From NCBI GenBank assembly GCA_011033025.1, contig WFMF01000002.1, positions 992,001-1,056,000 of the forward strand: DNA of 64,000 nt, written 5' to 3'. The DNA comes from Beroe forskalii. Lineage: Eukaryota; Ctenophora; Nuda; Beroida; Beroidae. The position numbers and the translations under genes are program-made. The notes below the pieces were generated by a model, which was not told where the DNA came from, made no database searches, and saw nothing but the letters and a program-made list of their open reading frames with translations. This document shows, piece by piece, positions 12,721 through 63,970 of the stretch (its first letter is position 1; each line of letters opens with the position of its first letter).

Positions 12721-12927
12721 ATGGAAATCTGATGCTTATCTGAGTCTATGACAGCCTTTTGCTTACTACGAGGTGAAAAAATCATATAAAAACAGCACGC
12801 CCCCTCCCTGGCGATGGCTCCCTGTCCTCTCTGGCGTCTGCTCCTCTGCTGGGTGGTGTTTCCCTGGTTGGTGAGCATGCTGACCTCTGTTCCTCTTGAC
12901 CCCCACCCTGATGCCGTTAGTTATACA

Positions 12928-17235: not shown

Positions 17236-18301
17236 TGCCGTTCTTTAATTCTTTAATTCAAACTCAATGCAGACTAAGAAGAGGGTCGACCATGGCACAG
17301 GCTGGAAGGTAACTTTTTTACTGAATTCTAAAGAATGAGTGTTGTAAGGTATGGGAAACTAACATCACTTGAGAATCAAGTGCAACAACTTTCATGTTAT
17401 AATGAGAGTTGTGAAAGTTTATGAGAGTTGTACATGAATGCCGTACTTGATGAGTTAAAATTGTACGTGATAAGGCTTTATCTCAGTGCTATAGACAAAT
17501 GTGTCTATTGAATTAGTATACTCTGTAAAGATTATAAACATGACTGTGAATAACGAAAAATGGGCCCTGATTGGTGTGGCAGGTGGTCCCTAGGGGCACT
17601 CTTAAGCATATAGCAACTGTGTCCTTTCTCCAGCCACATATACTGCTACACTAATCAATTGGCCCCCTGAAACGGATCTGGTCAACTAAACAGTGACTTT
17701 AAGCGAATTCATTGGACCAGTTTCAAATAGCCTTATCAATAAGTTCATGTAAAAATATAAAATAGGTATCTCTATACACTTGGTGTTCTTAAAGGTGCAT
17801 ACTTTACTGCCATGTCATGAAGTATGTGCTCTACAAAGGGGTCTGGTATCATTCTCCTTTGTATAGCAGACCAAGCTCAAGAGTTATCTATTCCATGGTA
17901 GAACATTATATGTCAAGCCATGATTCATTTAAATAGACCTGAATTGGTCTGATGAATTATAACGGTGCCTATTGATACAATACAGATAATGCAGCAGACC
18001 TCCAGATATAATGATTTTTACTAACTCTTCCATTATAATATTAAAGCTACAAGCTTATAAGATGTGACAAATCTTACCTAGATAGTCATTAGTCATATCA
18101 TTCTTAGATTTTTAAATTATCTGTATCTACCTTATGAATCCAAGTCCTAGATGCCTAATGCAAAAAATAGTCTCTCCCTCAAATATCAATATGAGTAGTA
18201 GAATTGGGTAGCGTTATGCCTTCATCATTCTTTTGTGTGTTTTTGATTGTAAGTTGTGGAGATCAATAAAAAACTTTGTTTACTTAAAAACTTTGTTTAC
18301 T

Positions 18302-37941: not shown

Positions 37942-40900
37942 ATGGGAGACAGTTTGCGGGACAAGGTCGTCTTGGATCCACTACCGGACTCCTTCCTACG
38001 ACTTGAAAACAGGTAAGTAATTACTAAATTATTATTACTCTGATTATCTGACCCTAGATATTGATAAATATTATTTCTTCCCCCAATCAGTTTTTTGATA
38101 ATTACAGTCAAGTTTTAGATTCACTTGAAATTTCTAAACAGTAAAATGGGTTGACGACTGAAAATTATTTCAAACTTTACATATCACACTTGTCACCTTT
38201 CAGCAATGCTACCCCGAACAGCCCTGGAGAGCCCACCCACGTGGAGCTGCCGCCTCGCCCACCTGGTAGTGGGGCGCCGCCCCCTCAAGCCGCCCCACCA
38301 AGACCGCCCCCTCCTCAACACGTGATACCCACCCAACAAGTCATCTACACGGGGCAACCTAGCCAGGTCCTGCAGCCCTGCGTGCCTCAGGCTGGACTCA
38401 GCATCACTGTAGCTCAGGTACTGTCAATCCTCAGCATCACTGTAGCTCAGGTACTGTCAATCCTCAGCATCACTGTAGCTCAGGTACTGTCAATCCTCAG
38501 CACACTGTAGCTCAGTACAGGTACTGTCAATCCTCAGCATCACTGTAGCTCAATCCTCTGTTACACATCGCACAGGTACTAGTTAGGTACTTAGGTGTGT
38601 ATGTTTATCAGTGTGTGTATGTTAATTAGTGTTTCAGGTTAGTGTATCAGGTTAGTGTATCTATCAGGTTTGTGTATTAGTGTATCAGGTTAGTGTATTA
38701 GATTAGAATAATGTGTAATGTATAAGTGACAAGTGTATAGTGGTATAGTGTGTGACAGTAAACAGTTACACATCTCACATAGCTCCCGTGTATGTAGATT
38801 AAATTAGAATGGTGTGTAATGTATAAGAGTATACGTGTATAGTGTAAATCAGTATGCACTACTCACATGTGCTCCCAATGTGGCTGACTAGTAAAGTGTG
38901 CCTACTTTAGTACTTTATACTTTACTCCTTGGAGAGTTGGGGCTACTTTGAACTTTTGAAAGTTCTCGTGATACTTGGTACTTACATGCAGTGATTTATA
39001 AGTTAACTCTCTCTAAACAAGTAGGTACTGGGCAATGTACATTGTACAGCATGCCCTGTATACAGTGTATGATTTAATGGTATGTCAAACGCTTGATTAG
39101 CTGGTGGATGAGATGACATCATTATCATAACCTAAAGTAACCTATTGAGCGTGGCAGGCCGCCTACCTTTTATGCACGGGGTGCTATGTGTATGTATGGT
39201 ATTCATTAGGTGGTATTCACTATTCATAGTATGGTATTCATTAGGTGTATTGTATACAAAATATCGTGTCATTAAGCACTTGCTGCATTGCAGGACTACA
39301 ATTAAAACTTAGGCATTGTAGTTCACTGTCAATTCGACTGTCAAATACTATAATTAAATAAGTTATCATCGATACGTATGAAGGTGTAATAACTTAATAA
39401 TAATACCTAGATGTATTATTGTAGAACAATACTTACAGTAGAAGCAGCTTTGATCTTTTGATATTATCAAAGTGAATGACTTCTTACAAAAGTACATTCA
39501 TCCAGCTTCAATCCAGGAGGCAGGAGCTCATATTGCTACCATCTACATGATGCATAACATGCATGATGCTATTAGTAGATACCATCAGAAACCCACGCGC
39601 CTAACCTAGGCGATTCAACCTCAAATTAACTCACCATTTAGTGCTATGATCTTATGATGACGTAAATGACGTCATCTGAATCGTGTGTATATCTTGTACG
39701 TTGCATATTGGAAACAATATGTTAATAAGTTCTGGAAGTAAGTTTGAAAATATAGGATAATCAAACACCCTTAGGATACGTTTATATGAATTATCACACG
39801 AGCGAAGCGAGTGTGATAATTCGAATTATTGCTCGAGCCGAAGGCGAGTGCAATAATTCCAATTATCACTCGAGCCGAAGGCGAGTGTGATAATTGATAT
39901 AAACGTATCCTCAGGGTGTTTGATTAATCTATTATATAACGTGAGAAACGGGCGGAGATCTACACTTGTTTTCCAATATAAGAGAGCAAATTTAGAAGCT
40001 TTTAAATATCAAAATCCCTTAAACTAGAGAGTAGAGGGCCTGAAATTGTTGAATCTTAAGAATATCAAGCACCGAAGTGGCCAGTAATTTTAGATTAGAT
40101 GGTGAAGAGTGGCTATGTATATTTATTTCAGTTAGCCTAAGTAAGTATGAATAAAAACGTAAGTCCAGAAACTCCATAAACTTTGGTCATATATATCTTT
40201 TGATTCCAAAGTGATTGTCGATTGAAATGTGTAGCAACGTCAAAACAAAATTGAAAGGTTATTTTCGTGTAAGTTTGTAACGCCGTAATGATGTAATGGA
40301 TGTACATTTATTGACAAATTGTGTAATAGAGTGAGAGCAAGTTGTCTTACTGGCACGTGTGTGCGCGGCTCATATAATGACCAACAAGTATAGATAAACT
40401 CATGAAACCAAAACAAGATAACATAATGTGTACACTGGTGTATCGTAATGGAGTGAGAGCAAGTGGTCTTACTGGAACGTGGGTGCGCGGCTCATATAAT
40501 GACTAACAGCTATACATAAACTCATGAAACCAAAACAAGATAACACAATATGTATACACTGGTATATCGTAATGGAGTGAGAGCAAGTAGTCTTACTGCT
40601 TTACTGGCACGTGCGTGCGCGGCTCATATAACGACTAACGTGAACGGTGAATGCATAAACCCATGAAACCAAAGTCCAAAACAAGATAACGTAAAGATGT
40701 ATACACTGGTGTATCGTACTGGAGTGAGAGCTAAAAAGTCAGATTCAAATGGTTTTACATAGTAAACAAATACGAATCACAAAATTCTGAAGTTTTGATT
40801 TTTGGGGTGTGATAATTTTTGGAAGGGTGTGTTAACTGTTCTTTCAGGGGTGTGATAACTGTACAGTTATCACACCCAAAATTTCGAAAATTTTAAAATC

Positions 40901-43900
40901 TTATGAAAATTATTAATTGACCCCTAAAGTACATTTTTGAAGCCGTTATATAACAAAAATTATCAGAGCAAGAATTATATAACGATCGTTATATAATAAT
41001 AATTTGTTAATATCTGGCAGGCGATCCTGAACAAGAGCTACACCCTGATAGGGAGCATGGACCCTTACGTTAGACTCAAGGTGGGACACAGCACCTACGA
41101 GACCTTCACAGACGAGGGGGCTGACAAGAACCCCAAGTGGAACAAGATCTACCACTGGTAAGAGAGGGGGAGGGGCATCACGCGTAGTGGTGCTCGTTAG
41201 TCTTAAGGGACCAACGACGAGTCAAAAGGGTGGTAAACACTTTAAAAGGGTCGGTATATAGGCAGAACGATGTTCGGTTGAGCCCGGTATGGTGAAGCCC
41301 AAGGTAAGGGTGAGCCTGGTACGGGTGGGCCCCTATATTGGGGTTATCCCAGGGCATTGGTGAAGCCCGAGGTTCGGTGGAGCCTGGTATGGTGAAGCCC
41401 GGCAATGAGGTGAGCCTGGTACGGGTGGGCCCCTATATTGGGGTTATCCCAGGGCATTGGTGAAGCCCGAGGTTCGGTGGAGCCTGGTATGGTGAAGCCC
41501 GGCAATGAGGTGAGCCTGGTACGGGTGAGCCCCTGTATCGGGGTTATCCCAAGGCATTGGTGAAGCCCAAGGTTCGGTGGAGCCTGGTATGGTGAATCCC
41601 GGAAATGGGGTGAGTCTGCATCTGGTATGGGTGAGACCGTGTATAGAGGTGAGCCCCGGACAATCGGGGGAGCCCTAAATTAGGGGGAGCGGTGTATAGG
41701 GGAGCTTTCCTAAGAGGTTATCCCATGTGTAGGGAAAGCCTGGGTACGGTGAACTCTATAATTTGTGATACCTAGAATAGAGGGAGCCGGTGTAACCGAA
41801 ACGGATGCATGGGCTCCCATAACTTGCCAACCCCATTGATATCGGAACAGTAGTAGAACAGTAGTAGATAAGCAGATTAATTGGAAGTCGGACATGTACC
41901 CGAGCACGAATAAACATGATGATATAGGTAAGTACTTGAATAATGGAAGGTATTTGTGGGAGTGTGGGTGACGTCATTGTAATTGTTTTACGGTCGTGAA
42001 TTGTGGACGTCACTCCACCACTCATTCATTTCAGCCCTCTACCGAACACCACTGCTGTTCGCATGATCGAGGTGCTGGTATTCGATGAGAAGTCTCTGAC
42101 AGAGGATCAGCGGATAGCTCACGCCAAGATACCCGTACCTCAGTCTGTCTTTGACGTGAGTAGGAATCTCGTAATTTTACTGCAATGGTTGTCACATTCT
42201 TCGACTTAATAAGGGCCATTTTCAAGCATATTTGCTCTACTCAAATTTCTGTTAAATAAGTAAATTAGTACGTTGGTACAAGTGCCAAGTTCCGAAACGA
42301 TAAACTATCGACAAAAAAAAGAATGAAAGTTGCCAAAAAGAGACAAAGATCATGAACCAAGCCGATTGCCCCCCACTTTCGAGAGAAAATTTGATTATCA
42401 GTTTTCCCGCATTTTTGATCTTATACTTTTTTGCGGCTACCTACCACCATTGCATTGGAACTTGTAAGCAATGTCCCAATCCAGACAGTACATTTTTCAT
42501 TGTATCATCAAGTCGGATGAAAATACAAATTGGTCTCATTGAATTTTACAATCCTAAATTGTTACTTTTAGGTAAGTTCTGTTTGTAATTACTGTTAGTA
42601 CTTAGTAATAATTATAGAATTATAATTAGTAATTTTCAGTGTTCTTACATCACAGTAACGTCAGACCGAAATAAAATCAAAGAGAGTGAACAACATGTAT
42701 ACATTTGATCATAACAATATAAAAATTCAAGCTTAGCTTATTTTTCAAAGATAATTTGAGTCTCCCGCTGTTCACAAATTTGACATATTATGATTGGCAG
42801 GTTCCGGTGTCTTCTGTCTATGTCTCATCAATCATCACGGATCTTTGTTCCGGAGCAATAACACTCCTTATGGATGAACTTTGTTATTATTTCCTTGGGA
42901 TAAATACAGCTAAGATAATCTTCAAAAGTATTAAAAAACCTTATAAACTTTTAAATCATGAACTGCCGATATGGAAGCTGTACTTTTTGCCTCTTCTTAA
43001 CTTGCCACAGTCTTGAATTAGATCTTTAGAGTCGATGTTTTGCTTTTGGGGGCCCTTCTGGCAACCATTCCCTCAGAAGCTAAGACGAAGGACTTTCAGG
43101 GCGTCCTCAGAATGATCGTGACATATCTATGTTAATTGTTAGCATGTCTGGTATCAATTTGGTAATATCCATAATAGCTTGCATCACTAATTTATCAATT
43201 ACAGATAAGCATTAAAGCATTAATGTTTTATTCACGGTAGTATAATTAAAACGTCAGAAAAACAATAGATGAGCCTGTTTATTAAGCTGTTATCTATCTA
43301 CAATGCTGAATGCATAGATAACAGCCTTTCCCGGCCCCTCTTGTTATATATTCGTCTACTCAACGCAAGTTCTCCCTACTCTAACTCTGTTTAAACTTTG
43401 AAACTTTGAATCTTTGAATTAAATATGAAATTAAATTCGTGTTTTTTTAGATCATTATTCCAGTACCAAGTCTTAAAGTCTTTACGTTATAACAGAATCA
43501 TGTGATCACATAGAGTGAACTGCACATTTTCATTGTGAAGCAACATTTCACTTCCTACTTTACCTGGACATGTTACTTGGTAGACTGAGTTCATCCAATT
43601 GCTGCCGCCCCCCGCGATACAGCCGTAAGCAGGACCGTACTTGTCGTAGGTGTCTGCTGCGTCTGGGCTGGTGTGGCATGCCTGCTGAGTCTGTACCCCG
43701 AACACTGTCCAGCCCTGCTCTATCGTGTACTGTCTGCACCCCTCTACAGGGTTTTCTGGAAAGCCAGCTCTCTTGCCGCCAGCAAAGGCTCTGTCTTCCG
43801 TGTCGTTCCAGCAGCCCAAGTCCTTCAGCTTAAAGCATACGGGGAGATCTGTATCCCCTGCGAGAAAACAGTGATGCAGTCAAGTATTCGAAGTAAATGG

Positions 43901-46900: not shown

Positions 46901-48989
46901 AGCCCCTCAACAATACCCTCCCCCTGCTGCCAACCCTCCTCAACCAGTCCCTGTCAAGGAGGAGGATGTAAAGACTTTGAAGGTAGGTAATTACTAACAC
47001 AGCCCTCAACAATACCACCTCTCTTCCTTACTTCGTCCTCTCTTTTCCCCACTACACCCCTCTCTTCCTTACTACGTCCCCTCTCTTCTCCACTACGCCC
47101 CCTCTCTTCCTCACTACGCCCCCTCTCTTCCTCACTACGCCCCCTCTCTTCCTCACTTCACCCCCTCTCTTCCTCACTACACCCCCTCTCTTTCTCACTA
47201 CACTCCCTCTCTTCCCCACTACGGCCCCTCTCTACCCCACTACGTCCCCTCTCTTCCTCACTACGTCCCCTCTGTTCCCCACTACGCCCCCTCTTTCCCT
47301 CACTACGCCCACTCTCTTCCTCACTACGCCCTTTCTTCCTCACTACACCCCTCTCTTCCCCACTGGATTCTCTCTTCCTCACAACGCCCCTCTCTTCCTC
47401 CACTGTCGGACGCCCCTCTTCTTCTCATTTCGCCCCTCTCTTTTCCTACTGTCGATTAAAGCAATCAATGAGCCACGCCCCTTGATTCTCACTACGCCCC
47501 CTCTCTTCTCCCACTACGTCCCCTCTCTTCCTCACTACATAGATACCTCTCCTTCCTCACTACGTCCCTCTCTTCCTCACTACACCCCTCTCTTCCTCAC
47601 CACGCCCCCTCTCTTCCTCACTGCGCCCCCTCTCTTCCTCACTACGCCACCTCTCTTCCTCACTACACCTCTCTCTTCCTCACTACCTCCCCTCTTTTCC
47701 TCACTACGCCCCCTCTCTTCCTCACTACGCCCCCTCTTTTCCTCACTACGCCCCCTCTCTTCCTCACTACGCCCCTCTCTTCCTCACTACGCCCCCCTTC
47801 CTCACTCCTCCCTCACTACGCCTCTTTTCATCACTACCCTCCTCTTTTCCTCAACGCCCCTCTCTTCCTCACTACACCCCTCTCTTCCTCACTACGTCCC
47901 CTCTCTTCCTCACTACGCCTCCTCTTTTCCTCACTACGCCCCCTCTCTTCCTCACTACGCCCCCTCTCTTCCTCACTACGCCCCCTCTCTTCCTCACTAC
48001 GCCCCTCTCTTCCTCACTACCCCCTCTCTTCCTCACTACACCCCTCTCTTCCTCACTACGCCCCTCTCTTCCTCACTACGTCCCCTCTCTTCCTCACTAC
48101 GCCCCTCTCTTCCTCACTACGCCCCCTCTCTTCCTCACTACGCCCCCTCTCTTCCTCACTACGCCCCTCTCTTCCTCACTACGCCCCTCTCTTCCTCACT
48201 ACGCCCCCTCTCTTCCTCACTACGCCCCTCTCTTCCTCACTACGTCCCCTTCCTTCCTCACTACGCCCCCTCTCTTCCTCACTACACCCCTCTCTTCCTC
48301 ACTACGCCCCCTCTCTTCCTCACTACGCCCCCTCTTCCTCACCCGCCCTCTCTTCCCCACTACGCCCTCTCTTCCTCACTACACCCCCTCTCTTCCTCAC
48401 TACGCCCCTCTCTTCCTCACTACGCCCCTCCTCTTCCTCACTACGCCCCCTCTCTTCCTCACTACGCCCCTCTCTTCCTCACTACGCCCCCTCTCTTCCT
48501 CACTACGCCCCTCTCTTCCTCACTACGCCCCCCTCTCTTCCTCACTTCGCCCCTCTCTTCCTCACTACCCCCCTCTTCCTCACTACACCCCCTCTCCCTC
48601 ACTACGCCCCACTTCCTCACTACACCTCTCTTCCTCACTACACCCCTCTTCCTCACTACCCCCCCTCTTCCTCACTACGCCCCTCTCTTCCTCACTACGC
48701 CCCTCTCTTCCTCACTACTCCCCCTCTCTTCCTCACTACGCCCCCTCTCTTCCTCACTACGCCCCTCTCTTCCTCACTACGCCCCCTCTCTTCCTCACTA
48801 CACCCCCTCTCTTCCTCACTATGCCCCCTCTCTTCCTCACAAAACCCCCTCCATCAGGATATGTTCCCTGACGTAGAAGAGCAAGTTATCAGGACAGTGT
48901 TGGAAAGTAAGCGCGGTAGTTTGGAAGGAGCAGTTGCTGCTATTCTCCAAATAACACAGCCCGGTATTGATGAGGAATCTGAAGCTTAG
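37942..48989 (+). CDS. TOLLIP: Toll-interacting protein (Tollip), complete, seven exons
   Basis: Exons are 37942-38012, 38204-38417, 41021-41157, 42035-42155, 46563-46649, 46845-46982 and 48858-48989. All phases match, giving 299 residues (human 274). Residues 1-23 match the Tollip start (LPDSFLRL). Exon 2 adds a Pro-rich linker and enters the C2 domain (AGLSITVAQ). Exons 3-5 give the C2 core: MDPYVRLKVGHSTYET, NPKWNK, EVLVFDEKSLTEDQRIAH, and DDWFPLSGKLGEDKEG with the family's W-x-x-L-S-G. The last exon carries a CUE ubiquitin-binding domain (DMFPDVEEQVIRTVLES). Tollip links ubiquitinated cargo to endosomal sorting and dampens IL-1/Toll signalling. Four introns are loaded with repeats, and one hosts a gene on the other strand. 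Confidence 0.95.
38400..38555 (+). repeat. 33-bp minisatellite spanning Tollip exon 2 donor
   Basis: The unit is 18 bp of exon end (AGCATCACTGTAGCTCAG) plus 15 bp of intron start (GTACTGTCAATCCTC). Three near-perfect copies end at 38417, 38450 and 38483. A fourth, altered copy ends at 38520, and a fifth lacks the donor. Each repeats CAG|GTACTG, and 33 is divisible by three. Confidence 0.85.
39759..39925. mobile_element. 167-bp MITE made of three hairpins
   Basis: The terminal inverted repeats are about 28 bp (AATCAAACACCC then TTAGGATACGTTTATAT, and complement). Inside are three successive 33-37-bp palindromes built on AATTATCAC(T/A)CGAG and its complement with short AGCCGAAGG-type loops. 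It lies in Tollip intron 2. Confidence 0.75.
40328..40745 (+). repeat. About 119-bp tandem repeat in Tollip intron 2
   Basis: There are three copies plus a partial fourth (starting about 40328, 40447, 40572 and 40718). Shared motifs are GGAGTGAGAGCAAGT, GTGCGCGGCTCATATAA and ACACTGGTGTATCGTA. Confidence 0.8.
41280..41640 (+). repeat. About 101-bp tandem repeat in Tollip intron 3
   Basis: The unit contains GTGAGCCTGGTACGGGTG, GGGGTTATCCCA and TGGTGAAGCCCGAGGTTCGG. Three full copies start near 41309, 41411 and 41512, with decayed units on both sides. Confidence 0.8.
43487..44080 (-). CDS. Secreted cysteine-rich protein nested in Tollip intron 4
   Basis: Two exons on the strand opposite Tollip are 44080-44011 and 43857-43487. 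The donor is GAG|GTTGTC and the acceptor TTTTCTCGCAG, phase 1, for 146 residues. Exon 1 is a signal peptide by composition (Met-Lys start, a hydrophobic stretch with VGICCWILW, then SRLAEST). Exon 2 encodes one Cys-rich domain: LGCWNDTEDRAFAG at the start, a G-C-R-Q-Y-T helix, W-T-V-F-G-V-Q, and the closing motif DKYGPAYGCIAGGG followed by S-N-W-M-N-S-V-Y-Q-V. The pattern (GCW/Y...RA...YxKYG...C..G.G..W.N.VY) recurs in WSC-like extracellular proteins of many aquatic invertebrates, where function is unknown. It lies wholly inside the intron between 42155 and 46563. Confidence 0.7.
44240..45000. repeat. Repeat-like block in Tollip intron 4
   Basis: G-rich ends (GGGGGGG at about 44325 and 44925, in the same orientation) and motifs such as CACAAAATGGCAGAGTTATGGCC look like old transposon sequence similar in style to 6841-8207. 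I cannot define its borders. Confidence 0.3.
46990..48857 (+). repeat. 21/22-bp pyrimidine-rich minisatellite in last Tollip intron
   Basis: The consensus is CCTCTCTTCCTCACTACGCC with one or two more C. About 80 copies with length and base variants run right up to the acceptor CCATCAG (48851-48857). The top strand is almost pure pyrimidine. From 47543 to the acceptor there is no AG dinucleotide. A 464-codon open frame over this region is only a by-product of the stop-free repeat. Confidence 0.9.
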
Positions 48990-50212: not shown

Positions 50213-50878
50213 ATGGCAATGGCTTCCAATGGCAGCAATGTCAAAGTTATAGCAGCAGCTTTTGGCATTATTGGGACGGTCTATATTGGAGGACAGGTGA
50301 GTCGATGGGAAAAGTCCAGTTTATTTCCTAAGCATGCTTTCTATTCTTTTTTATATATTCGTTCCACTAACTCTGAAATTATCAATGACTCTTCCATCTA
50401 AATCTATGAGTATGACTCTTTCAAATGTAAAATCACTAATGCATGTTATCCGTACAGTTATTTGAAGCGTACGGCTACAGGCCTGGGAACAAAGCTATCC
50501 TCCAGAGATCAGCTGCCGTTAAGGACGAAAGAGACATGCGCCTTGCAGGTACATGTTCATGTTCAAGTTCAACCTGTGGGATTATTTCAACTTTTCAAAA
50601 TTATGAGATTCCTCAGCGATTCAATTTCATTTAGAAAAGACCTCTAACATCCAACTCCAAGGAAATACTCTATAGTCTTAAATTTATTAATTTATGTGGA
50701 ATTAAACCAATACTCAAATATTATGTCGCTCTGCCCTTCTTAACAATGCCCCTCTCCCCCAGATAACCTCGCGAGTGGAGACGCCCCCTCAGCACCTTCC
50801 TCCACTCTCTTTACTCGGGATCAGAAGGAGAGGTCACGAGTGGAGGGCGCCCTGGCACACAACACTATCAAACCTTAA
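50213..50878 (+). CDS. Small single-pass membrane protein, unknown
   Basis: Three exons, 50213-50296, 50458-50548 and 50763-50878, join in frame and encode 96 residues. The ATG follows a good acceptor by two bases, so the 5' UTR is probably spliced. Residues about 10-27 (VKVIAAAFGIIGTVYIGG) form one membrane helix near the N-terminus. A charged tail follows (AVKDERDMRLAD) and ends in IKP. Size and shape resemble small mitochondrial or ER integral membrane proteins, but I do not recognise the family. The matching phases, good splice sites and regular codon use argue that it is real. Confidence 0.65.
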
Positions 50879-50967
50879 AGTCGCAACTTCTCGTCCCTTC
50901 AGAGCTAAACTTTTTGATATACCACGGACTCAGCCTTGTCCATTATATTGCCGATTTTACCGTGGTG

Positions 50968-51176
50968 TCTCGACCTTTTCAAGCGCGGCGTATTGCGCCG
51001 CACATGGGTACTTTTTGCGGCGCGTAACAGGGCGCAAATGTACTTTACTGTTACAATAATACTGCTTTGTAATAACATTTTCGCGCTGTGACGCGCCGCA
51101 AAAAATACCCATGCTACGCGTTGTACTAGTAAAAACTAAAAGTACGCCGCGCATGAAAATTAATTAATGGTCGAGA
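50968..51176. mobile_element. About 209-bp foldback element, GCGC-rich
   Basis: The ends TCTCGACC and GGTCGAGA are inverted. Inner arms continue as GCGCGGCGTA with TACGCCGCGC, and ATGGGTACTTTTTGCGGCGCG with CGCGCCGCAAAAAATACCCAT. There is no ORF. It starts 90 bp after the stop of the small membrane-protein gene, so it could form its 3' UTR. Confidence 0.75.
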
Positions 51177-52500
51177 TCATTTCACGCCATGTCTCAATGT
51201 ACATTTCGGTGTGATGAAGTGTTTTTGTTAAGTTTTTTAATTAAGTTAAATATTTTTGGTTTTATGAAATTGAATATGAGCAGACCACATTGACATTTTC
51301 CCCTAAAATCACCCTATTATTAACATTTAGTCGTGAGATATGGATTAATTGTAGTGTTGTCCTAGAAATCAATTGGCTAGATTCTGTTTAGAAAGTGGAC
51401 ACTTGTTATCAGAACAAAGAAAGTATTTAAAAATTGAATTAATACTAGGGGCAAAACATTTACTTTGATCATGTCTACAATAAGTGAAAGTGAGTGGAGT
51501 CTGACATCTCAGGGGCCGGCCAAAGAGATAGTAGATACTCGATGCTTTTGATAATCCATATTTTAACTCTTCACGCATCGCAATTGACTTTGTGCAGATC
51601 ACAGTCACACAAATAACCTAGCTCGAGCAGAGTGCCAAATTGTAGCTAAATCATGTTAATTTATTGGCATCACCTCTTAAAGTGCATATGAATATTGATG
51701 CTTACAAATGGTTTTATCACTTAAATCAGCCGCATTATTGCCATTATCGGCTACTGATTGTACGAAACAGGACACGGAGTCCGTACCATACTCCCACTGA
51801 AATTGTAATATTTGTGACACGCATGCTGTAATGATGTATCAAAGACAATCGCCTTTATACAATGCGATATTTTTGAGCTTTTTTTACAAAGAGCAATTGT
51901 TTAGTACACTAGGTGGCGTTAAACACGTCAAAATTATCAATAGCCACTACGTTTAACTTATTGTAAAGACTTAATTGCTTTAAAATTGCTCAAAATTAAA
52001 GTATGCGTTTTATGGACTCCATCAGCCCGGGATATTCTATTAACTATCATCATTTTATGCCACCGCGATGGCACAAAAGCCGAGCGTGGATTTTTGTTAA
52101 ATTGCCGATCTTTTTGCATGGTTAATTCATTAATATGAGTTTCGTTGGTATTTAAGGCTCGCTTTTATTGAGAAGATTCGATGGTTTCACTATTCAACTA
52201 TTTTGTGTCTTGTATTTTGCTGAAATTCGATGTCAGTACTTCATTCTTTCATTGATCGCTTTGTTCATATCACCAAGTGATTGTTTTATGTCTCTGCTCC
52301 GGGGAATTGTCGTTTGACGCTCAAATTTTAAATTAAAAGTCGCTCATCTTTTCTTAGTTAAACTTAAATCTGTGAAATTGGTATGAAATACAAAATAATA
52401 ATGAAGTAAAAACTGTGCAGACGCTTACCTTCCGACAATTTCGCAATTGTCACTATTCTTATTAATCATAATCAAGAATTTTTCCCACTGAGGAGGTTGC
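51177..52500. other. Intergenic, nothing recognised
   Basis: I see no exon, repeat array or inverted ends that I can support. Confidence 0.3.
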
Positions 52501-52519
52501 ACAACAAAAAGTTGTGAAT

Positions 52520-52750
52520 GTTGTCCAATGGATCCATCATGTCCAACGGACGTCCGTCGTCCATTGGACAATGGACATCCATTGGACATGATGTCCATCG
52601 GTAAAAATGTTCAATGGATCCATTGGATCCATCTTCGATGTTCAATGGAGATGTCCAATGGATCCAATGGATGATCAATGGAACCATCTGAGTGGATCCA
52701 ATGGACATATCCAATTTAGATCTAATAGAATTGGATATTTAATGGATCAA
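52520..52750. repeat. Palindromic CCATTGGATCCAATGG-type repeat cluster, left
   Basis: Many irregularly spaced units of ATGGATCCATTGGA and TCCAATGGAT, each partly self-complementary, are packed here. A larger cluster of the same motif is at 55187-55610. Confidence 0.8.
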
Positions 52751-52849
52751 TCTGAGAGGAAACAGTCACCAAACCTAGTTTTGTATAATTATATGTACAG
52801 GGTTGGTAATAAGTCGGCTTCACTACCATGATATCGTTCATCGTTATAT

Positions 52850-55000
52850 TAAGATACGAGAAAACCCGTTAGGTTTTATCTTTAATTAGACGTATGGTCA
52901 GTTGGACGTTAAATAAATTGAATGAAGTCCCTGATACAATTTTTTGTTACTGGGGGTAGGGATGCAATGTAACGAAATTACGAAATATTTTCATAGGATT
53001 TGAATAGGCGTAAATCAAAAAATATTGCACATTTTGCGATTGTAAATGAATGTCGAGGACACATAACAGTAAATAAGAAGAACTGAAGGACAATGGTTTT
53101 CTTAATGATCCAAAGTTCAGGTCCGGAGAAACGATGGGCAACAAATTTGAATCCAAGCTCATTGAAATCAAAATTGTCCGCATTTTCATCTGTTTATAAC
53201 CCACTTCTAACTATAATTGGACTTGTAGTAAGTTGGACGTACAATAGATTAAACGAAGTAATTGATGCAATTTTTGTTACTGGGGGTAGGGGTGTAACGT
53301 AGAACGTAACAAAATCACAAAATATCTACATACTGTTTGAATATGAATCAAAAATTTTTGCAGATTTTGCGATTGTACATTAATGTCGAGGACACAATAT
53401 AACAGCAAATATAAGAAGAACTCAAGAACAATGGTTTTCTAATACAAAGTTCAGATTCGGAGAAAAGATGGGTAACAAATTTGAATCCAAGCTCATTGAA
53501 ATCAAAATTGTCCGCATTTTCATCTGTTCAGAACCCACTTCTAACTTGAGTAATTTAAAATTCCTACTACTTCTGTCGAATCCTCGCACAACTATCAAAA
53601 CTACAAATTTCTTGATACGAAAGAATTATCGCTGATTTTCACAATGTAACAAAATGTTCAAGTATTACCTTTTCTCCTACAAAAGTTATTACTTATTAGA
53701 GTTGATAGTCTTCTGTCGTAAAATTTTTACCAAACTCGAAAATTCCATTGAGAACGTAAATTATGAATTCAAACATTGGAAACGTTTCCAAAGTACACAG
53801 TAACGAAATGGCAGATTCTTCGTTAAAATGCACGTGCAGTTTTTGCGCGCAATCACCAATCACCATGGCAACGCGCGCAACTGGTGAATTAAACCTTCAA
53901 CTCGATATTGTTTTTCGCGATTCCTTTTCCAACTTCGAGCATTAATTACGGAAAGTCTAAAGCCTAAATTCAAATAAAAATAATGCTTCTCTAGAGGGAA
54001 TTTATTTTTCTACTACCCTGCAAAAAATCGCGGGATTTCAACTCCGTTTTTAGCCGGCGTTTGGGTTGCGCTAAGCACGGTGCTTCAACTGCCTTAATCC
54101 TTTATAATAATGACGAGAAAACCCGTTGGGGGTTCTCACTAATTGGACGTATAGTTAGTTGGACGTACGATAAATTGATCGAAGTCATTGATGCAATTTT
54201 TTGCTACTGGGGGTAGGGGTGCAACGTAACGAAATTACGAATTATTTTCATAGGATCTTAATATGAATCAAAAAATGTTGCAGAATTTGCGATTACAAAT
54301 TAATGTCAAGGACACATAGTTCAGTAAATCCAGAACAACGGTTTTCTAATCCGAAGTTCAGATTCAGAGAAAAGATGAGCAACAAATCGTTGAAATCAAA
54401 ATTGTCTGCATTTTCATCTGTTTTGAACCCACTTCTAACTTGAGTAATCGAAAATTCCTCCTTCTGTCGAATCCTCGCAGCAAACCATCAAAACTACAAA
54501 TATCTTGATATGAAAGAATTATCGCTGATTTTCACAATGCAACAAATTGTTCAACTCTTACCTTTTCTACTACAATAGTGATTAGAGTTGATAATCTTCT
54601 GTCGTTAACTTTTTACCAAACTCGAAAATTCCATTAAGAACGTAAATTATGACTTTAAACAGTTGAAACGATTCCAAAGTACACATTAACGAAATGGCAG
54701 AATCTTCGTTAAAATGCACGTGCAGTTTTTGCGCGCAATCACCAATCACCATAGCAACGCGCGCAACTTGTGAATTAAACCTTCACTTCGATCTTGTTTT
54801 TCGCGATTATTTTTCCAACTTTGAGCATTAATTACGGAAAATCCAAGGCCTAAATTCAAATAAGAATAATGCTTCTCTAGAGGGAATTTATTTTTCTACT
54901 ACCCTGCAAAAAATCGCGGGCTTTCAACTCCGTTTTTAGCCGGCGTTTGGGTTGTGCTAAGCACGGTGCTTCAACTGCCTTAATCCTTTATAATAATGAT
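52850..55000 (+). repeat. Three direct copies of a 0.36-0.9-kb repeat
   Basis: Copies begin near 52855 (partial), 53200 and 54110. Shared landmarks include GTTACTGGGGGTAGGG, AATGTC(G/A)AGGACACA, CCCACTTCTAACT and GTGCAGTTTTTGCGCGCAATC. Copies two and three are about 85-90% identical over about 850 bp and both end near GGTGCTTCAACTGCCTTAA. No ORF of note. Confidence 0.8.
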
Positions 55001-55186
55001 TACATTGACACCTCTTTACTATCTTGAAATCATGTTGCTACCTTGACACCACTCTACAACCTTGACATTGCTTTATTACATTGACACCATCTGCTACCTT
55101 GACACTGCCTTGACAAACTGGGAAATATGCAAACCAACAAATTTCAATAAGATTGCATTAATTTGATGAGGTTGGGGTATGAATGT

Positions 55187-55610
55187 GTCCAATGGATCCA
55201 TTGCGTCTAATGAGTAATGGATTAAATGTTTCCAATGGTGTTTAATGGATCCAATGGACACATTGAATCCTTTGGACTCTTTGTTTCTAATAGATCCATT
55301 GGATCTATTGTGTTCAATGGATCGTTTGATTTCATTGTGTGACACAATGGATCCATTGAAAACTTGAACACAATGGATCCATTGGACACAATTTGTGCCC
55401 AATGGCAATGGAGCAATGGACCAATGGGACGAAAATGCCAGCTTGATGTCCATCAACCAAACTAGGTCTGGTGAGCATCCATTGGATCCATTGGACAGGT
55501 CCATTAAACATCGAAAATGGATCCATTGGATCTGTTGAACACCATTAAAATTTTCAGCTGGAAATCCATTGGACATTTCCATTGAACATAATGGATCCAT
55601 CGGACATGCT
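55187..55610. repeat. Palindromic CCATTGGATCCAATGG-type repeat cluster, right
   Basis: This is the same motif family as 52520-52750. The two clusters bracket the direct repeats between them. Open frames of 64-208 codons here come from the repeat and do not look like protein. Confidence 0.8.
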
Positions 55611-55789
55611 TCACGACTCTTGTGACCCTTGCCAAAAATTGCAATAAAACCATTGCCAATGTCATTGGTTTTAGAAATCGGCCCGATATCCTTCAAGCAC
55701 CCAAATTTTCCACTCGCCACGATTTTATTATGACTCCCAGCAATGTACTGTAATTAACCAAATGGTTTAGGCGGGACTCTTACCAAGCT

Positions 55790-56100
55790 CTATGCACTAT
55801 ACTGACGTACGGTATCCACTATCCATGCACTGAAGTACTGTGCCCTCTGTCCGTGCACTGAAGTACTGTGTCCACTGTCCATGCACTGAAGTACTGTGTC
55901 CACTGTCCATGCACTGAAGTACTGTGTCCACTGTCCATGCACTGTGTGTTGTGACTGGTGCGACTCAGAGCACTGTACTGACGTACTGTGTCCACTGTCC
56001 ATGCACTGTGTGTTGTGACTGGTGCGACTCAGAGCACTGTACTGACGCACTGTTTCCACTGTCCATGCACTGACGAACTGTGCCCATTGTCCATGCACTG
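55790..56100 (+). repeat. 28-bp minisatellite
   Basis: The unit is TACTGTGTCCACTGTCCATG plus CACTGAAG. Several near-perfect copies are interleaved with a 72-bp higher-order unit containing GTGTTGTGACTGGTGCGACT. Confidence 0.85.
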
Positions 56101-57630
56101 AACGTTGCAGCTGACGTTAAGCTTTACTAATCTGAGCTGCAGCTGCTGTTGCAGTAGGAGTGCATCTGCTTTGTGCCTGAAACGATGAAATGCACATTAC
56201 ATACTTATTACAACACTCAAGTGACAGCAGAGCGCAGCACATTCTCAGCTTTACTATATATCCGGTGATAAACAGATTATTCAATATTCCGTACGTAAGG
56301 AGGCCAGATTCAGCTCTTATAGTTATTGAAATGACAAGCTGTGTTTAATCAGCTACTGCCCACGGTGACTCAGTGACAAAATGCATGCGATTAAAATATA
56401 AAGCTCGGATTTTTACAATCCGTATATCAATACAACTATGCTGACCACAAACTATCGCGTAAACAATTAATTCGCACAACGTGCTTTCGATTGTTTCCTA
56501 TGTTGAGATAATTTTAGATTGTTCTGATAGTTTGTTGCACACTTTTGGCTCAGAAAAACCACAATTTATCGTAACTGCAACCACGCATCCACTACCAGAT
56601 AAGAGCTATCTCGTACATGTATCACTATAAGCATGAGCTGTTCGCTTGTGAAAATGAACAGCTTATTCGATATATCGTCGTTATGCCGGTGTTTACTCCA
56701 TCGAGTTGTATACTGCACTTTTCTCAAGAACTTCGATAGATTCTACCAACATATTTTCCCAGCCATAAACTCATAAATGAGAAATATAAATCAACTGTTG
56801 CCGCGTCAAGTTTAATATACCATGATTAAAAGTGCATATTAAAGCCACTCAGGCACCGCTTCTTCGTGCAAGCCAATGCCATGACACAATTAATAAAAAA
56901 CGTTATTGTTATAGTTGTGTACAGGACGAAAACTTCATTGGTATCTGCGTAGTTTAGCTAAACTGTTGTCGTTTGGTTTGCCGCAAATATTATTGGTATA
57001 TTCAGCAATCAGCAAAATACCGGGCAGGTCAAAACTCAAAAAAGGATGAAATGAGGTCCTAAATATTTTGGCTTCTGTTGCGAGTTTTTGCATGAAATTT
57101 TGGGATCTCATAGGTATGGGTCACAAATATTTGTACCAAAAATTTGAAGCTCCAACCTCACAAAAATTTTAGTTATCGCCAAAGAACCTAATTTCACAAA
57201 AGTTAGGGTTTTTTCTTTTTATAGCCCGAATATTGCTTCAATTTCAAATATCTAGAAACGTCCATCAACTGTGTCAAAAATCTCGTAACAGTATTTTTGT
57301 AACGGTATTTAAATGCAAGTTTGCAATTATCACAGAAATTTGTTGGAAATGATGAACAATTAGAACACTCATGAAAAAGTTAATATTGATTCCATTTCCT
57401 AATCATTTCAACTCAATGGTTAACTGTGATTGTAGAATGGCAATTCCATTGAAGCTTGGACTCAAATTCAAAACGATAGCTCCAAAAATTAACTCACCCG
57501 GTACATTGGAAATGTTATTCTTAATTTTGAACTACTTTTCGAATCTGAGGAATAATCCCAAATCTGTAATTTTTAACTCACCACTTAAAACATCTCTCTC
57601 CAGTAGTAGAAGAAGCTTCTGATATATCAC
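56101..57630. other. Intergenic or intronic, no supported exon
   Basis: This stretch is AT-rich. I cannot find a clear acceptor for the exon that ends at 57793, so earlier exons of that gene may be here or be split by repeats. Confidence 0.3.
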
Positions 57631-57652
57631 TGCGTATCTGACTGACGTTGCA

Positions 57653-60600
57653 CTGGGAGCGGACACGAAGCTGAGTCCCGTGTCGGGGACTGACATTCTG
57701 GTGGGAGTCCACTCCGTGACAGGGAGCGATAGCACGGACGCCTTGCTCGTCACCATGGGCAAGCGAGACCTCCTGCCCAATGCCATCTACCAGGTAGAGT
57801 TGTAGGGGACTGTAGTGTCACCATGGGCAAGCGAGACCTCCTGCCCAATGCCATCTACCAGGTAGAGTTGTAGGGGGGACTGTAGTGTCACCATGGGCAA
57901 GCGAGACCTCCTGCCCAATGCCATCTACCAGGTAGAGTTGTAGGGGGACTGTAGTGTCACCATGGGCAAGCGAGACCTCCTGCCCAATGCCATCTACCAG
58001 GTAGAGTTGTAGGGGGACTGTAGTGTCACCATGGGCAAGCGAGACCTCCTGCCCAATGCCATCTACCAGGTAGAGTTGTAGGGGGGACTGTAGTGTCACC
58101 ATGGGCAAGCGAGACCTCCTGCCCAATGCCATCTACCAGGTAGAGTTGTAGGGGGACTGTAGTGTCACCATGGGCAAGCGAGACCTCCTGCCCAATGCCA
58201 TCTACCAGGTAGAGTTGTAGGGGGGACTGTAGTGTCACCATGGGCAAGCGAGACCTCCTGCCCAATGCCATCTACCAGGTAGAGTTGTAGGGGACTGTAG
58301 TGTCACCATGTGGGCAAGCGAGACCTCCCTGCCCAATGCCATCTACCAGGTAGAGTTGTAGGGGACTGTAGTGTCACCATGGGCAAGCGAGTCCTGCCCA
58401 ATGCCATCTACCAGGTAGAGTTGTAGTGGGGGACTGTAGTGTCCTCCTGCCCAATGCCATCTATGGGCAAGGAGTAAATGTCACCTCCTGCCCAATGCCA
58501 TCTACCAGGTAGAGTTGTGGGGGGACTTGTAGCATGGGGACTGCCCAATGCCATCTACCAGTGTGGCATGGGCAAGCGAGACCTCCTGCCCAATGCCATC
58601 TACCAGGTAGAGTTGTAGGGGGACTGTAGTGTCACCATGGGCAAGCGAGACCTCCTGCCCAATGCCATCTACCAGGTAGAGTTGTAGGGGGACTGTAGTG
58701 TCACCATGGGCAAAGCGAGACCTCCTGCCCAATGCCATCTACCAGGTAGAGTTGTAGGGGGGACTGTAGTGTCACCATGGGCAAGCGAGACCTCCTGCCC
58801 AATGCCATCTACCAGGTAGAGTTGTAGGGGGACTGTAGTGTCACCATGGGCAAGCGAGACCTCCTGCCCAATGCCATCTACCAGGTAGAGTTGTAGGGGG
58901 GGACTGTAGTGTCACCATGGGCAAGCGAGACCTCCTGCCCAATGCCATCTACCAGGTAGAGTTGTAGGGGACTGTAGTGTCACCATGGGCAAGCGAGACC
59001 TCCTGCCCAATGCCATCTACCAGGTAGAGTTGTAGGGGGACTGTAGTGTCACCATGGGCAAGCGAGACCTCCTGCCCAATGCCATCTACCAGGTAGAGTT
59101 GTAGGGGGACTGTAGTGTCACCATGGGCAAGCGAGACCTCCTGCCCAATGCCATCTACCAGGTAGAGTTGTAGGGGGACTGTAGTGTCACCATGGGCAAG
59201 CGAGACCTCCTGCCCAATGCCATCTACCAGGTAGAGTTGTATGTCCTGCCCAGGGGGACTGTAGTGTCACCATGGGCAAGCGAGACCTCCTGCCCAATGC
59301 CATCTACCAGGTAGAGTTGTAGGGGACTGTAGTGTCACCATGGGCAAGCGAGACCTCCTGCCCAATGCCATCTACCAGGTAGAGTTGTAGGGGGGACTGT
59401 AGTGTCACCATGGGCAAGCGAGACCTCCTGCCCAATGCCATCTACCAGGTAGAGATGTAGGGGGACTGTAGTGTCACCATGGGCAAGCGAGACCTCCTGC
59501 CCAATGCCATCTACCAGGTAGAGTTGTAGGGGGGACTGTAGTGTCACCATGGGCAAGCGAGACCTCCTGCCCAATGCCATCTACCAGGTAGAGTTGTAGG
59601 GGACTGTAGTGTCACCATGGGCAAGCGAGACCTCCTGCCCAATGCCATCTACCAGGTAGTGTCACCATGGGCAAGCGAGACCTCCTGCCCAATGCCATCT
59701 ACCAGGTAGAGTTGTAGGGGGACTGTAGTGTCACCATGGGCAAGCGAGACCTCCTGCCCAATGCCATCTACCAGGTAGAGTTGTGGTAGGGGGACACCAT
59801 GGGCAAGCGACCTCTGCCTTAAGCCATCTACCAGTTGTATCAAGCAGTGTCACATGGGCAAGCGAGACCTCCTGCCCAATGCCATCTACCAGGTAGAGTT
59901 GTAGGGGGACTGTAGTGTCAGCATGGGCAAGCGAGACCTCCTGCCCAATGCCATCTACCAGGTAGGGTTGTAGGGGGACTGTAGTGTCACCATGGGCAAG
60001 CGAGACCTCCTGCCCAATGCCATCTACCAGGTCTGTCCCTCAGTGCAGGGATTTAGAGTTGTAGGACTGTGGGTTGTAGTTGCAGTTGGAGCTCTTGCAG
60101 CACCTGTGGGAATTTGTTTACTTTTAATATGTGATCAGTGTGACCAAAGGGGGGGGGGGATAAAGTTGAATAAGGGAGATAAAAGCGTCCCATAGGGCAC
60201 AGCCCTGTATTATGGATTACCCTATAACAGGTTGTCACAATATAAATTTCCTGTGGCCTAAACCATAGCTGACTAGCTGAAGCTTAGAAGTAAACTCCTT
60301 CACCCTTCAGCGTATCAAGCAGTTGCAGTCCCGCCTCAAGAAACGTACAGAAGAGGAAGAAAAGAGACTGAAAATGGCTGAGAAGGCAGTCACTGCAAGA
60401 TGGGAGGAACACCAGAAAAAGGTTTGGAAAGTCCCGGGACAAAATATATGCTTTGGATTTATTTGATAGAAACAGTACCTATTATGTCCACACCGATGGA
60501 TCTGTTGGCTCAGCTCCACAAATCACTTCCACTAAAACCGGTACAGATTTTGCAGTTTGAGAACTACTTGAAGAGCCTGGAAAGCCCGGTCCCGGATGAG

Positions 60601-63600
60601 AGTGAGCGGGGCACAAAGTCAGCGCCAGACAGGGTGGGAAGTTTGGTGCCCCCGAACTCCCGCACCGGGTCGACACCCCTCCATGAGGCACCTACCATGC
60701 GGAGTATTTCATTGGAACACGTGCAGCTCGTGGAAACGTGCATCTCAACCTCACCCTCACATGTTATTACCATGTTATACTTTCTAGTGCGTTGGAGGGC
60801 AGTGCTCCAGTGGTCATCCCACATTGGGAAGCGCATATTATACACTTCCTTATTGGCCCTTATACTTAGCCGGCCCTTAAGGACCAATTGATAGCTTGTC
60901 AATTTTGGTCCTGAGGGCCGGTTAAAATGCAGCAGCTTAAAAAGACCAAATTATTTGGGTGAAATGACATTTTTGATGTTTCAAATTTTGTATGTATTGT
61001 ACATGATTTGTTTGAAAATCGTTGTGAAACAGCCATGACACAAGAAAAGTGACGTGAAAGGAGAACATAAGTTTACAAAATAAACCTAAATTTGAGGTAA
61101 ATCACGACTGTGGCGAAAATATTTGTCCAAATTCTGGTGACAACCAAAAAAACTGTTTTAAAGGGTCTATCTTGGGTGAGCAAAAAGGCCGGTCACAAAA
61201 AGACCACTTAGATAAGGGCCAATAAGGCATGGTATTCTACCATGGAGTATTTCTACACCAACTATTGCAGCGCACAAAAATAGGCGGTTAATGGTGACAT
61301 TCACTGATTCGACAGCAATGATGTCACTCTCGACGGCCTATTATAGTGCGGCATTTACTGAATATTGCGGTAAATTGGTGTCATAAAAATTAGTTCTAGC
61401 TGGCACCTATTCAGGAGAAAATAAAAATTGTAATACGCAAGCTATTTTCATTCAATCATTCATTAAACTATGTGAATCAGGATTGTGATTAGGCACTGCC
61501 CGACGTGTGTCCCTTTGTGACAGTGCAGCATTTGTTGTTGTAGAGATGTGAATCAGTAGCATTGTTGATAACTTGACTACTTGACGTTTGTTTGGGCAGC
61601 GGAAAAGTCACTTGTGATATTTATGTGATCATTGATGCATGTCTTTTGAATCAGTTTTTACATGAAAGCAATCATAAAAAAGCATAGAACGGCATCTATT
61701 TGATTTTCTTAGTATCAAAAATGAAGTATGATGCCATGAGTATAAAATTCTCCTCAGAATCATTCTAACCAACTAAATAAGATAGGCATCGTTCGTCAAG
61801 CTTCAGCCCCAATCGCTGCCAATTTTGTCTCCTAAAGTTCTAAACATATAAAGTATAATGTCCAACTGTCTGCAGTTGTCAGCTGCAATCATATTCTTGG
61901 CGTTGTACAGTTATTTATGGTACTCGGATGGTCTGGTGTTATTGTTGAACTGGTGTCACACTACAACTCAGAAGATAAAGCTGAGATCTGTCTATCTGTT
62001 TAGCTGGTGTATGAGTTAATTTGATCAGTGTCAACAAGAACCGGTGTCAGAAAAAGCTTTGTGCCTTTTTGTCTGCAGTAGACTGGAATCAGAGAAATAA
62101 AGTACTGAAGGGTCGAGACACTTCTAGCTAAACCAGGACAAATCATAGCCTCATAGCGTGTATAGAGTGGGGGTCCGAAACAATTGAGATCGACTTAGCC
62201 AAGGCAAATCTAAAATTTTATTACTTCATTAAGATAGAAAGTTCCCAAGGTAAATAGCTAATAGACTGAGAGAGAAATCCATGAAGTGTGATATCTTCCA
62301 CTCAATTCTTCACAGTATGCCAACTGAAGTCATGGAACACAATCTTAACACAAATGTATCTTGACAGTTGAATGAGGGTAACTCAAACGCTTAGAACGTT
62401 TTCAACTCGATATGCTTTGGAGCTCTGCGGATTTTCTAAAACGGAGTTTGCATGTGTTCTTCCATAAATCTTTGAAAGTAGAGATAGAACTGGCTCAAGT
62501 GAACAGTAGTAAAATGCGATAACAATACTTTTCAGACATCCAGCATGTCAAGATCGGCCGGCTCCATAACCCCAGCCCACTCGAGCAAAGCCAACTCTAC
62601 CTCATCCTCCAGACTGAGTAGTGTGAGAACTGAGAAGGTCAATCTATAATCTTATTAGACTTAGATGTGCCAACATGCCATTGAATTCAAAATATAGTCC
62701 AATATCTCATTTGAGTAACCTCGATAAGGTTTTAATTGATACGGATTCCTAACTAAAAAGCTGATATCAAATCGAGGTACTCATCAGCTACTCAGGTATG
62801 GAAATTCAAATAGCATAGTGAAAAGTATTATTTTTGGTAAGCATTGCATGGGTATTCCCGGCATTTTATAAAAATTCATCTCCAAAAGTAAAGCCAGGAT
62901 TTAATCATTTCTATTGTTAGAGAAGCACTCGATTGAAGCACATGAATAGCAAATCCATTACCCAAAAATCACGGAGAAGGGTAATACAATTATTGGATAA
63001 GAATTTCATAACGAATCGTTATTGTTGTAATCATCGAAATGAAAAAACAAAGCGATGCTAAATTCAAACATTTGCTTCAGATGGCTCAATCTACTCCACA
63101 CGGTCAAAGCTCGAATCCAGATTGGTCAGTGGGGACACCGATAGATGACAAATCTGACAAGATATCAACAGGTTAGAAATGCTGGCACTGATTTCCAACT
63201 TAAGGTTTCGAATATGTTCACTATGATCGGAACAAGGAGTACCTTTTTGCAATTTAAAAACTGCTTAGAATCAAAATCTTAAAACCCATTGACCGACCAT
63301 TTCCATACAAATGCAAATCAAAAATCCATTCTCAGGCAAATCGAACCTGGCTCAGGCCTTAACGGAACTAGAAAACAAGACTACGATCACTAAGACCTCC
63401 CTCTCAAGCGGGGCTCCCAGCAGTCGGAATCAGGGAGCACATTCGAACGATGGGGGTGCGTTCTCACGGACCTTCTCACCGCCCCCCTCCCTCCCCTCCA
63501 CCCCATCAGTATCAGCGACCCCCTTCCAACAAACACCCCTCCCAGCACCAGAGTCACCTGTACAGCAGGAGACGGTGGTGTCTTCTCCAGAAGTACCTTC

Positions 63601-63970
63601 ACAGGTTGGTGGGGTGGGGAGGGATGATATAGAAACATCACCAGTTTGATACACCTTCCCACTGGGAAGAGGAAGTGTCTCATTGATAACCTCCACCACT
63701 ACTGTATGTGAATTCTAACCCTCACCATGCATACAGCCAGAAGTTCCGAACATATCTGTCACGAAAATGACAACAGCATCCCTCGACAGCAACTCTAGCA
63801 AGGATGTCTCATCGCAGAAGAAACTGAAACAGAAACCCAAGAAAAAGACCAACAAACCACCAAAGAAGAAATTAAATCGACCAAGGCCTGAAAAGCCACC
63901 AAGGCCGCCAAAGGACTATGAAGAAGAATCTCAAGAAGAGGTGAAAGAGGTGCCAAAAAGCAAAAAAGAG
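57653..63970 (+). CDS. Coiled-coil and Lys/Pro-rich protein, 3' portion, unidentified
   Basis: Exons are about 57653-57793 (5' edge unclear), 60311-60421, about 60514-60633, 62536-62637, 63081-63171, 63336-63604 and 63737-63970. The last four join with matching phases. The first reads GTDILVGVHSVTGSD and ends NAIYQ at CAG|GTAGAG. The second is a charged helix (RIKQLQSRLKKRTEEEEKRL) that should form a coiled coil. The later ones are Ser/Thr/Pro-rich and end in a very basic stretch (KKLKQKPKKKTNKPPKKK). The gene continues past the window, with the donor GAG|GTTCGT at 63970. Exon 3 is the least certain (short upstream intron, weak donor). The family is not recognised; such layouts are common in centrosomal or microtubule-associated proteins, which is inference only. 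Confidence 0.6.
57755..60030 (+). repeat. 69-bp array repeating an exon end and its 5' splice site
   Basis: About 34 copies. Each unit is the last 39 bp of the exon (ATGGGCAAGCGAGACCTCCT through CATCTACCAG) plus the first about 30 bp of the intron (GTAGAGTTGTAG, a G run of 3-7, ACTGTAGTGTCACC). Unit length varies with the G run. About 32 copies keep an intact CAG|GT. A few internal units are broken (58430-58560, 59800-59850). After the last unit the intron reads GTCTGTCCCTC. Confidence 0.92.
60634..62535. other. Intron, nothing recognised
   Basis: The open frame continues to about 60890, but I see no good donor there. The rest is AT-rich with no exon or repeat that I can support. Confidence 0.3.

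Follow-up and report, generated by a model that had tools for sequence, protein, structure and literature searches.

A tandem array in the window (the whole 64,000-nt stretch of Beroe forskalii DNA that was analysed) repeats an exon-intron junction together with its donor, one per unit, as the original prediction had recognised. The array is real and unusual, and chance is excluded as the source of the array itself, yet arrays of this kind are already known. Based on splice-site scoring, we consider this junction minisatellite to be a row of candidate dual-specific splice sites, which would be spliced directly or in steps to the acceptor of the exon at 60311; we give this reading slightly less than an even chance. 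Coordinates are collected in Table 1.

Table 1 Features of the two junction arrays and of the gene that contains the 69-bp array. Positions are those of the window, except for the exons past its end.
Feature	Position	Strand	Details
Second junction array	38397..38552	+	unit of 33 bp: 21 nt from the exon end, 12 nt from the intron start
Probable exon with first unit copy	57604..57793	+	AG acceptor 57602-57603, donor after 57793; start of exon probable
Tandem junction array	57749..60030	+	unit of 69 bp: 45 nt from the exon end, 24 nt from the intron start
ATG in CACCATGGG	57755..57757	+	possible start codon
First array donor GTAGAG	57794..57799	+	donor 6.48; same CAG|GT as acceptor 9.79
Scrambled units within array	58415..58566	+	
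Last donor GTCTGT with 22-nt stretch (60033-60054)	60031..60054	+	unique intron follows
Next exon	60311..60421	+	37 codons, phase 0, acceptor CACCCTTCAG
Array-gene exon	62536..62637	+	
Array-gene exon	63081..63171	+	
Array-gene exon	63336..63604	+	
Array-gene exon	63737..63970	+	
Six further array-gene exons, through to the stop	L009 97-2172		past window end

Tandem Repeats Finder reported a period of 69-70 with 96% matches in both main blocks of the array (57749-58443 and 58567-59659), and less regular adjoining blocks extend it to 60032. The unit had originally been described as 39 bp of exon plus about 30 bp of intron. Its exon part is longer and its intron part shorter than that (Table 1), because the GTCACC in front of the ATG is also present in the unique exon. 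Within the array, the 45-nt core (GTCACCATGGGC...ACCAG) occurs in 25 exact copies and the 39-nt exon piece in 28. The 32 CAGGT sites have the context CAGGTAGAG in 29 cases and CAGGTAGTG, CAGGTAGGG and CAGGTCTGT in one case each, the latter restricted to the last copy. Reading of the sequence added three pieces that contain no junction, which gives about 35 unit-derived pieces, close to the 34 copies and 32 donors of the original prediction. When parsed at unit starts, the array falls into 29 pieces, 23 of which have two or fewer differences from the consensus. These 23 pieces show only three substitutions in total, their remaining differences being small indels that mainly affect the length of the G run; the remaining six comprise the last copy, which is shorter, and pieces that are merged or scrambled. 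A query with the first part of the array found no other match in the 216-Mb genome, in a search that ignores very common words, and the sequence 5' of the array was likewise found at a single locus. RNA folding was no better than that of shuffled sequences, both for two units (z -0.52) and for the exon with the first two units (z -0.25).

The proposed exon-intron setting of the array held. The five exons 3' of the array within the window have GT and AG borders and fitting phases, and the exon at 60311-60421 joins with ten more in one frame; when the stretch ATGGGC...CAG is connected to these eleven downstream exons, a 630-codon frame results that ends at a stop. The exon at L009 363, whose acceptor ACCATCCCAG is among the 11 used for scoring, is less certain, as it was placed where this acceptor avoids a stop. 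In our own reading the product is a charged, coiled-coil-like protein. Searches revealed no relative in the PDB at E up to 1 (85-residue query; 413 of the 630 residues, low-complexity parts omitted), no Pfam family above the cut-off and no second genomic copy of the gene at E up to 0.001 (282-residue query).

Splice sites were scored with models trained on this genome. The main model is based on 19 donors and 20 acceptors, of which ten donors and 11 acceptors belong to the array gene and nine of each to CCT1-like and G-beta-like genes. Twelve junctions were found in these housekeeping genes and three were dropped before scoring (two weakly aligned in L040 and one tied in L035); two of the nine that were kept (L029 and L031) are near-tied in placement. 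A first acceptor model had been position-specific and trained on the array gene's own 11 acceptors. The main model was made after it, with nine junctions added and positions -20 to -5 pooled, and the score of the unit end rose. Model dependence was checked by nine variants, combining three scoring schemes with three training sets, and known donors were ranked by leave-one-out.

These scores also bear on the start of the exon that precedes the array. The original prediction had placed it at 57653, a position that was rejected for want of a preceding AG. By comparison, all nine models give a good score to the acceptor at 57604, with a value of 8.53 in the main model (above 11 of 20 known acceptors) and a range from 5 of 11 to 16 of 20 known acceptors beaten. 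An internal exon that starts at 57723 is possible; its acceptor beats 0 to 7 of 11 known ones across the models and ranks above 57604 in the first acceptor model (4.4 against 3.44), whereas 57604 scores higher in the other eight variants. A start at 57660 is poor in all nine acceptor models, beating at most one of 11 known sites.

In the main model, the array donor GTAGAG (6.48) exceeds 98.2% of 598 random GTs but only four of the 19 known donors. It was originally called strong, while our ranking shows a middling site below the median. Furthermore, the donors had been taken as equal, yet that of the last copy, GTCTGT, differs in its letters and scores better (9.82, above 15 of the 19 known donors). 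As an acceptor, the unit end ACCAG|GTA reaches 9.79 in the main model and outscores 13 of the 20 known acceptors as well as 99.4% of the 511 random AGs. The first model gave it 1.33, above three of 11 known acceptors and 80% of random AGs, and over the nine variants it beats between 3 of 11 and 7 of 9 known acceptors and between 80 and 99.6% of random AGs. Of the 11 exon ends of the gene that were scored, none is more acceptor-like. The ten others range from -11.6 to 8.1, and since two of them are also fairly acceptor-like (8.12 and 5.95), this property is not unique to the unit end. On the + strand of the window, eight of the 215 AGGT sites outside both junction arrays reach a donor score of 6.4 together with an acceptor score of 5.9, a pair of values that both junction arrays exceed, and one reaches a donor score of 6.4 with an acceptor score of 9.7; these thresholds were set after the scores were known.

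The edges of the array are informative about its origin. Unique exon lies to the left of the first unit and unique intron to the right of the last, and the intron part of the unit (GTAGAGTTGTAGG..GACTGT) matches this unique intron, the match differing by 22 nt that are found only after the last copy (60033-60054) and by a shorter G run. Unique exon on one side and matching unique intron on the other are as expected from tandem duplication across an existing exon-intron border. A minisatellite would have grown across the 3' end of the exon and the start of the intron. Judged from the anatomy of the array, an early tandem duplication may have copied about 24 nt of intron along with 45 nt of exon; the last copy would have retained the old intron edge, and later slippage or unequal exchange may have led to the about 35 mostly near-identical units.

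Each intact unit end reads ACCAG|GTAG, letters that suit a 3' splice site as well as a 5' one, which makes the array, as far as scoring is concerned, a row of candidate dual-specific sites: each unit offers one AGGT that is donor-like as well as acceptor-like in context. The juxtaposition AG|GT that is typical of recursive sites is likewise present in letters and scores, but the location inside a long intron is not, as the sites lie at the donor edge of an intron of 0.3-2.5 kb. The pre-mRNA would most likely be spliced from the first junction to 60311 either directly or stepwise via any number of unit junctions. Joining the donor of one unit to the acceptor of a later one takes out whole units and restores an identical CAG|GTAG, so that all chains ending at 60311 would give the mRNA expected of a gene with one copy. 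As the junctions are identical, every route would produce the same mRNA, and the expansion may for this reason be tolerated by the gene. According to the original prediction, splicing must either choose the first donor or yield nonsense transcripts. If coding enters upstream, the first donor is indeed the only one of the 32 that leaves the frame open, but the choice would not be forced, because ACCAG|GTAG is also acceptor-like and unit-to-unit splicing would restore the same junction.

Besides the model-dependent acceptor score and the donor rank below the median, further points argue against dual use. The 19 introns placed in this genome have a median length of 273 nt, and an intron of one unit (69 nt) would be shorter than all of them; as the shortest measures 126 nt, a step would more plausibly span at least two units than just one. 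In addition, use of the first donor alone yields the same mRNA. It is a real possibility, well short of even, that the array is a passive filler of the intron and that the first donor, which bounds the 190-nt exon, is always or nearly always used, while the other 31 junctions stay silent in an intron of 2.5 kb. Exon definition would favour the donor closest to the acceptor at 57604, 28 of the 31 later donors share the letters of the first, and the distance of 2.5 kb between the first donor and 60311 is within range for a gene that has another intron of 2,114 nt. However, the last donor is the stronger one and would leave an intron of 280 nt, nearer to the usual size, and the splice-site letters of the first copy are the same as those of the other intact copies.

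Whether coding enters upstream of the array or starts at the ATG of a unit is a near even choice. The exon at 57604..57793 contains an in-frame TGA (57620-57622), and its first ATG is that at 57755; in the array, ACCATGGGC is present 28 times and CACCATGGG in most units. The frame that opens at 57623 stops after 60 codons for 31 of the 32 donors and is open for the first, which confirms the in-frame TAG of the original prediction. With the unit ATG as start, 30 of the 32 donors keep the 630-codon frame intact, alongside 1 to 70 other ATGs. It is conceivable, although we rather doubt it, that the mRNA has its first ATG in CACCATGGG, so that an intact unit would consist of a start codon, 13 codons and a donor. 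Retained units would then add short upstream frames (MGKRDLLPNAIYQVEL followed by a stop) and leave the protein untouched, and donor choice would thus tune translation. Leader trans-splicing is described as widespread in ctenophores in parts of PMC8527503, and with it each unit could be a first exon. A start codon in the unit is compatible with dual-specific sites as well as with a passive filler.

In line with a start within the unit, the acceptor at 57604 appears real-like in nine models and puts the TGA at 57620-57622 in frame. The 151 nt before 57755 are free of ATG, which was also the case in 860 of 10000 shuffles, and, as noted above, the array ATG reads the full frame with nearly all donors. 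Moreover, an exon scan of 50600-57640, which covered exons of 45-400 nt and would miss those below 45 nt, returned one weak candidate only, with a phase that fits neither 57660 nor 57723. On the other hand, the 132 nt before the ATG are coding-like in the same frame, with a z of 3.1 that was reached by none of 729 open, overlapping control segments presumed to be non-coding, and the other two frames of this stretch contain three stops each. The possible internal exon from 57723 also speaks against a start in the unit. Furthermore, the 3' end of the Hormiphora leader was searched as a 15-letter pattern, one mismatch being allowed, and showed no clear enrichment (90 matches compared to 62 for the reversed control).

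An assembly artefact or an inflated copy number, with few units at the true locus, is unlikely: the differences between units are mainly indels and a few units are scrambled, as could result from noisy long reads, but the array contains distinct internal variants and is flanked by unique sequence on both sides. Micro-exons between TGTAG and CAG|GTAGAG, as suggested by the original prediction, are highly improbable and were rejected, since the AG that precedes the repeated exon piece in most units (GACTGTAGTGTC 28 times) makes a poor acceptor (-18.25, lower than all 20 known acceptors and at the lowest end of the 511 random AGs; none beaten in nine models) and the arrangement would need 23-nt introns around a piece of 46 nt, which is not a multiple of three.

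The original prediction knew of no standard description for such a donor array, but precedents exist in the CBS VNTR and in the UBC and VCX3A arrays. Lievers et al. reportedly addressed the effect of the CBS VNTR on CBS splicing in 2001. Passages of PMC2630376 name the human 31-bp VNTR c.1444_1467+7(16_21), which corresponds to 24 exon and 7 intron bases in 16-21 copies. Going by this name, the unit straddles one junction, from the end of the exon into its intron, as in the array described here, and the donor is repeated with each unit. The unit is longer here (69 compared to 31 bp), the CBS copies are fewer, and the passages concerned claim no start codon in the CBS unit. They describe copies that vary by substitutions at a constant length of 31 bp, whereas the array in the window varies mostly by indels (PMC2630376). 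A further similarity is found in CBS 844ins68, a duplication that covers an intron/exon junction; according to the same passages, its additional splice site is tolerated because the extra piece is removed by splicing (PMC2630376).

Tandem arrays of dual-specific splice sites have been described for UBC and VCX3A, and passages of the source state that those of human UBC are spliced in RNA (PMC10809524). The arrays share with the present one a single AGGT per unit, which can act there as 5' or 3' splice site and gives introns of whole unit multiples. In contrast, UBC units are coding and can be kept, while the intact units here are interrupted by a stop in frame and lie across an exon-intron border that already exists; dual use is demonstrated in UBC, whereas the sites here are candidates by score. 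A duplicated AG|GT stretch is also the basis of a form of intron gain, in which duplication makes donor/acceptor pairs that are able to splice out the copy precisely, as set out in parts of PMC3443670. Here, the donor edge of an existing intron appears to have been multiplied, which would make a new intron unnecessary; part of the unit is already intronic and homologous to the intron that follows the last copy. Recursive splice sites, or ratchet points, have an AG|GT that serves first as acceptor and then as donor (PMC10809524), and they are described for long introns. Here, by contrast, the donor edge carries 32 consecutive sites, each with a copy of the exon end in front. Compared to these precedents, the array differs in its copy number, in a unit that combines an acceptor-like end with a donor and a possible start codon, and in the presence of a second array 20 kb off.

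This second junction array has the unit CTCAGCATCACTGTAGCTCAG|GTACTGTCAATC, with CAG|GTACTG sites after 38417, 38450, 38483 and 38520 for which the main model gives a donor score of 7.27 and an acceptor score of 6.96. If its units were retained, three would read through in frame and a stop would follow in the fourth. The exon border is supported by a C2 domain match, which crosses the join to the exon at 41021, having begun six residues ahead of it. The gene ends in a CUE domain, for which Toll-interacting protein is the best PDB match, and is TOLLIP-like. We claim no enrichment of arrays at junctions: two hits among roughly 16 placeable junctions are about what chance would give, because the ten arrays picked from the window cover 5,622 of its bases.

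The TOLLIP-like gene contains other repeats as well. About 89 copies of a 21-bp pyrimidine-rich unit occupy 47018-48851 in one of its introns, forming a 1.8-kb polypyrimidine tract that stops just a few bases short of the CUE exon's acceptor (AG before 48858). The start of this intron repeats 14 nt of the preceding exon (46904 and 47003), and a 100-bp tandem unit with AGGT sites is present in 3.5 copies at 41268-41618, shortly 3' of the C2 exon.

It may be speculated, though we regard it as improbable, that around thirty near-identical modules, each comprising a start codon followed by 13 codons and a site usable as both acceptor and donor, form the 5' end of the gene that contains the 69-bp array. 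Nearly every junction could then either terminate the first exon or be erased. The choice of junction would be protein-neutral, and the kept units would set the number of short upstream frames encountered by the ribosome. If this were true, the length of the array would be a heritable dial on expression that acts via RNA, and the TOLLIP-like gene 20 kb away would show the same kind of junction growth. Splice-site choice among identical neighbours is usually studied with built minigenes of few copies. This genome supplies 32 copies in a row in one gene, 29 of them with the same donor letters, and four in a second gene. Should the copies be dual-specific, they would provide a natural test of the proposal, made in passages of PMC10809524, that repeats are tolerated because splicing erases them, and the test locus would be situated in an animal probably distant from humans.

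Elsewhere in the window, closely similar reverse-transcriptase frames were detected at 11553-12735, 15710-16870 and 18284-20386, on both strands; judged by eye, they are apparently copies of one LINE-type element. A long simple repeat of the CA/TG type lies about 10-11 kb past the window end (L010 122-1214). Furthermore, contig C1134 (13,339 bp; L028 and L041) is mitochondrial and contains a very divergent COX1, in which TGA is read as Trp, along with further reading frames. By eye, it resembles ctenophore mitochondria, for which parts of PMC6991124 describe unidentified frames and use of the mould and protozoan code.
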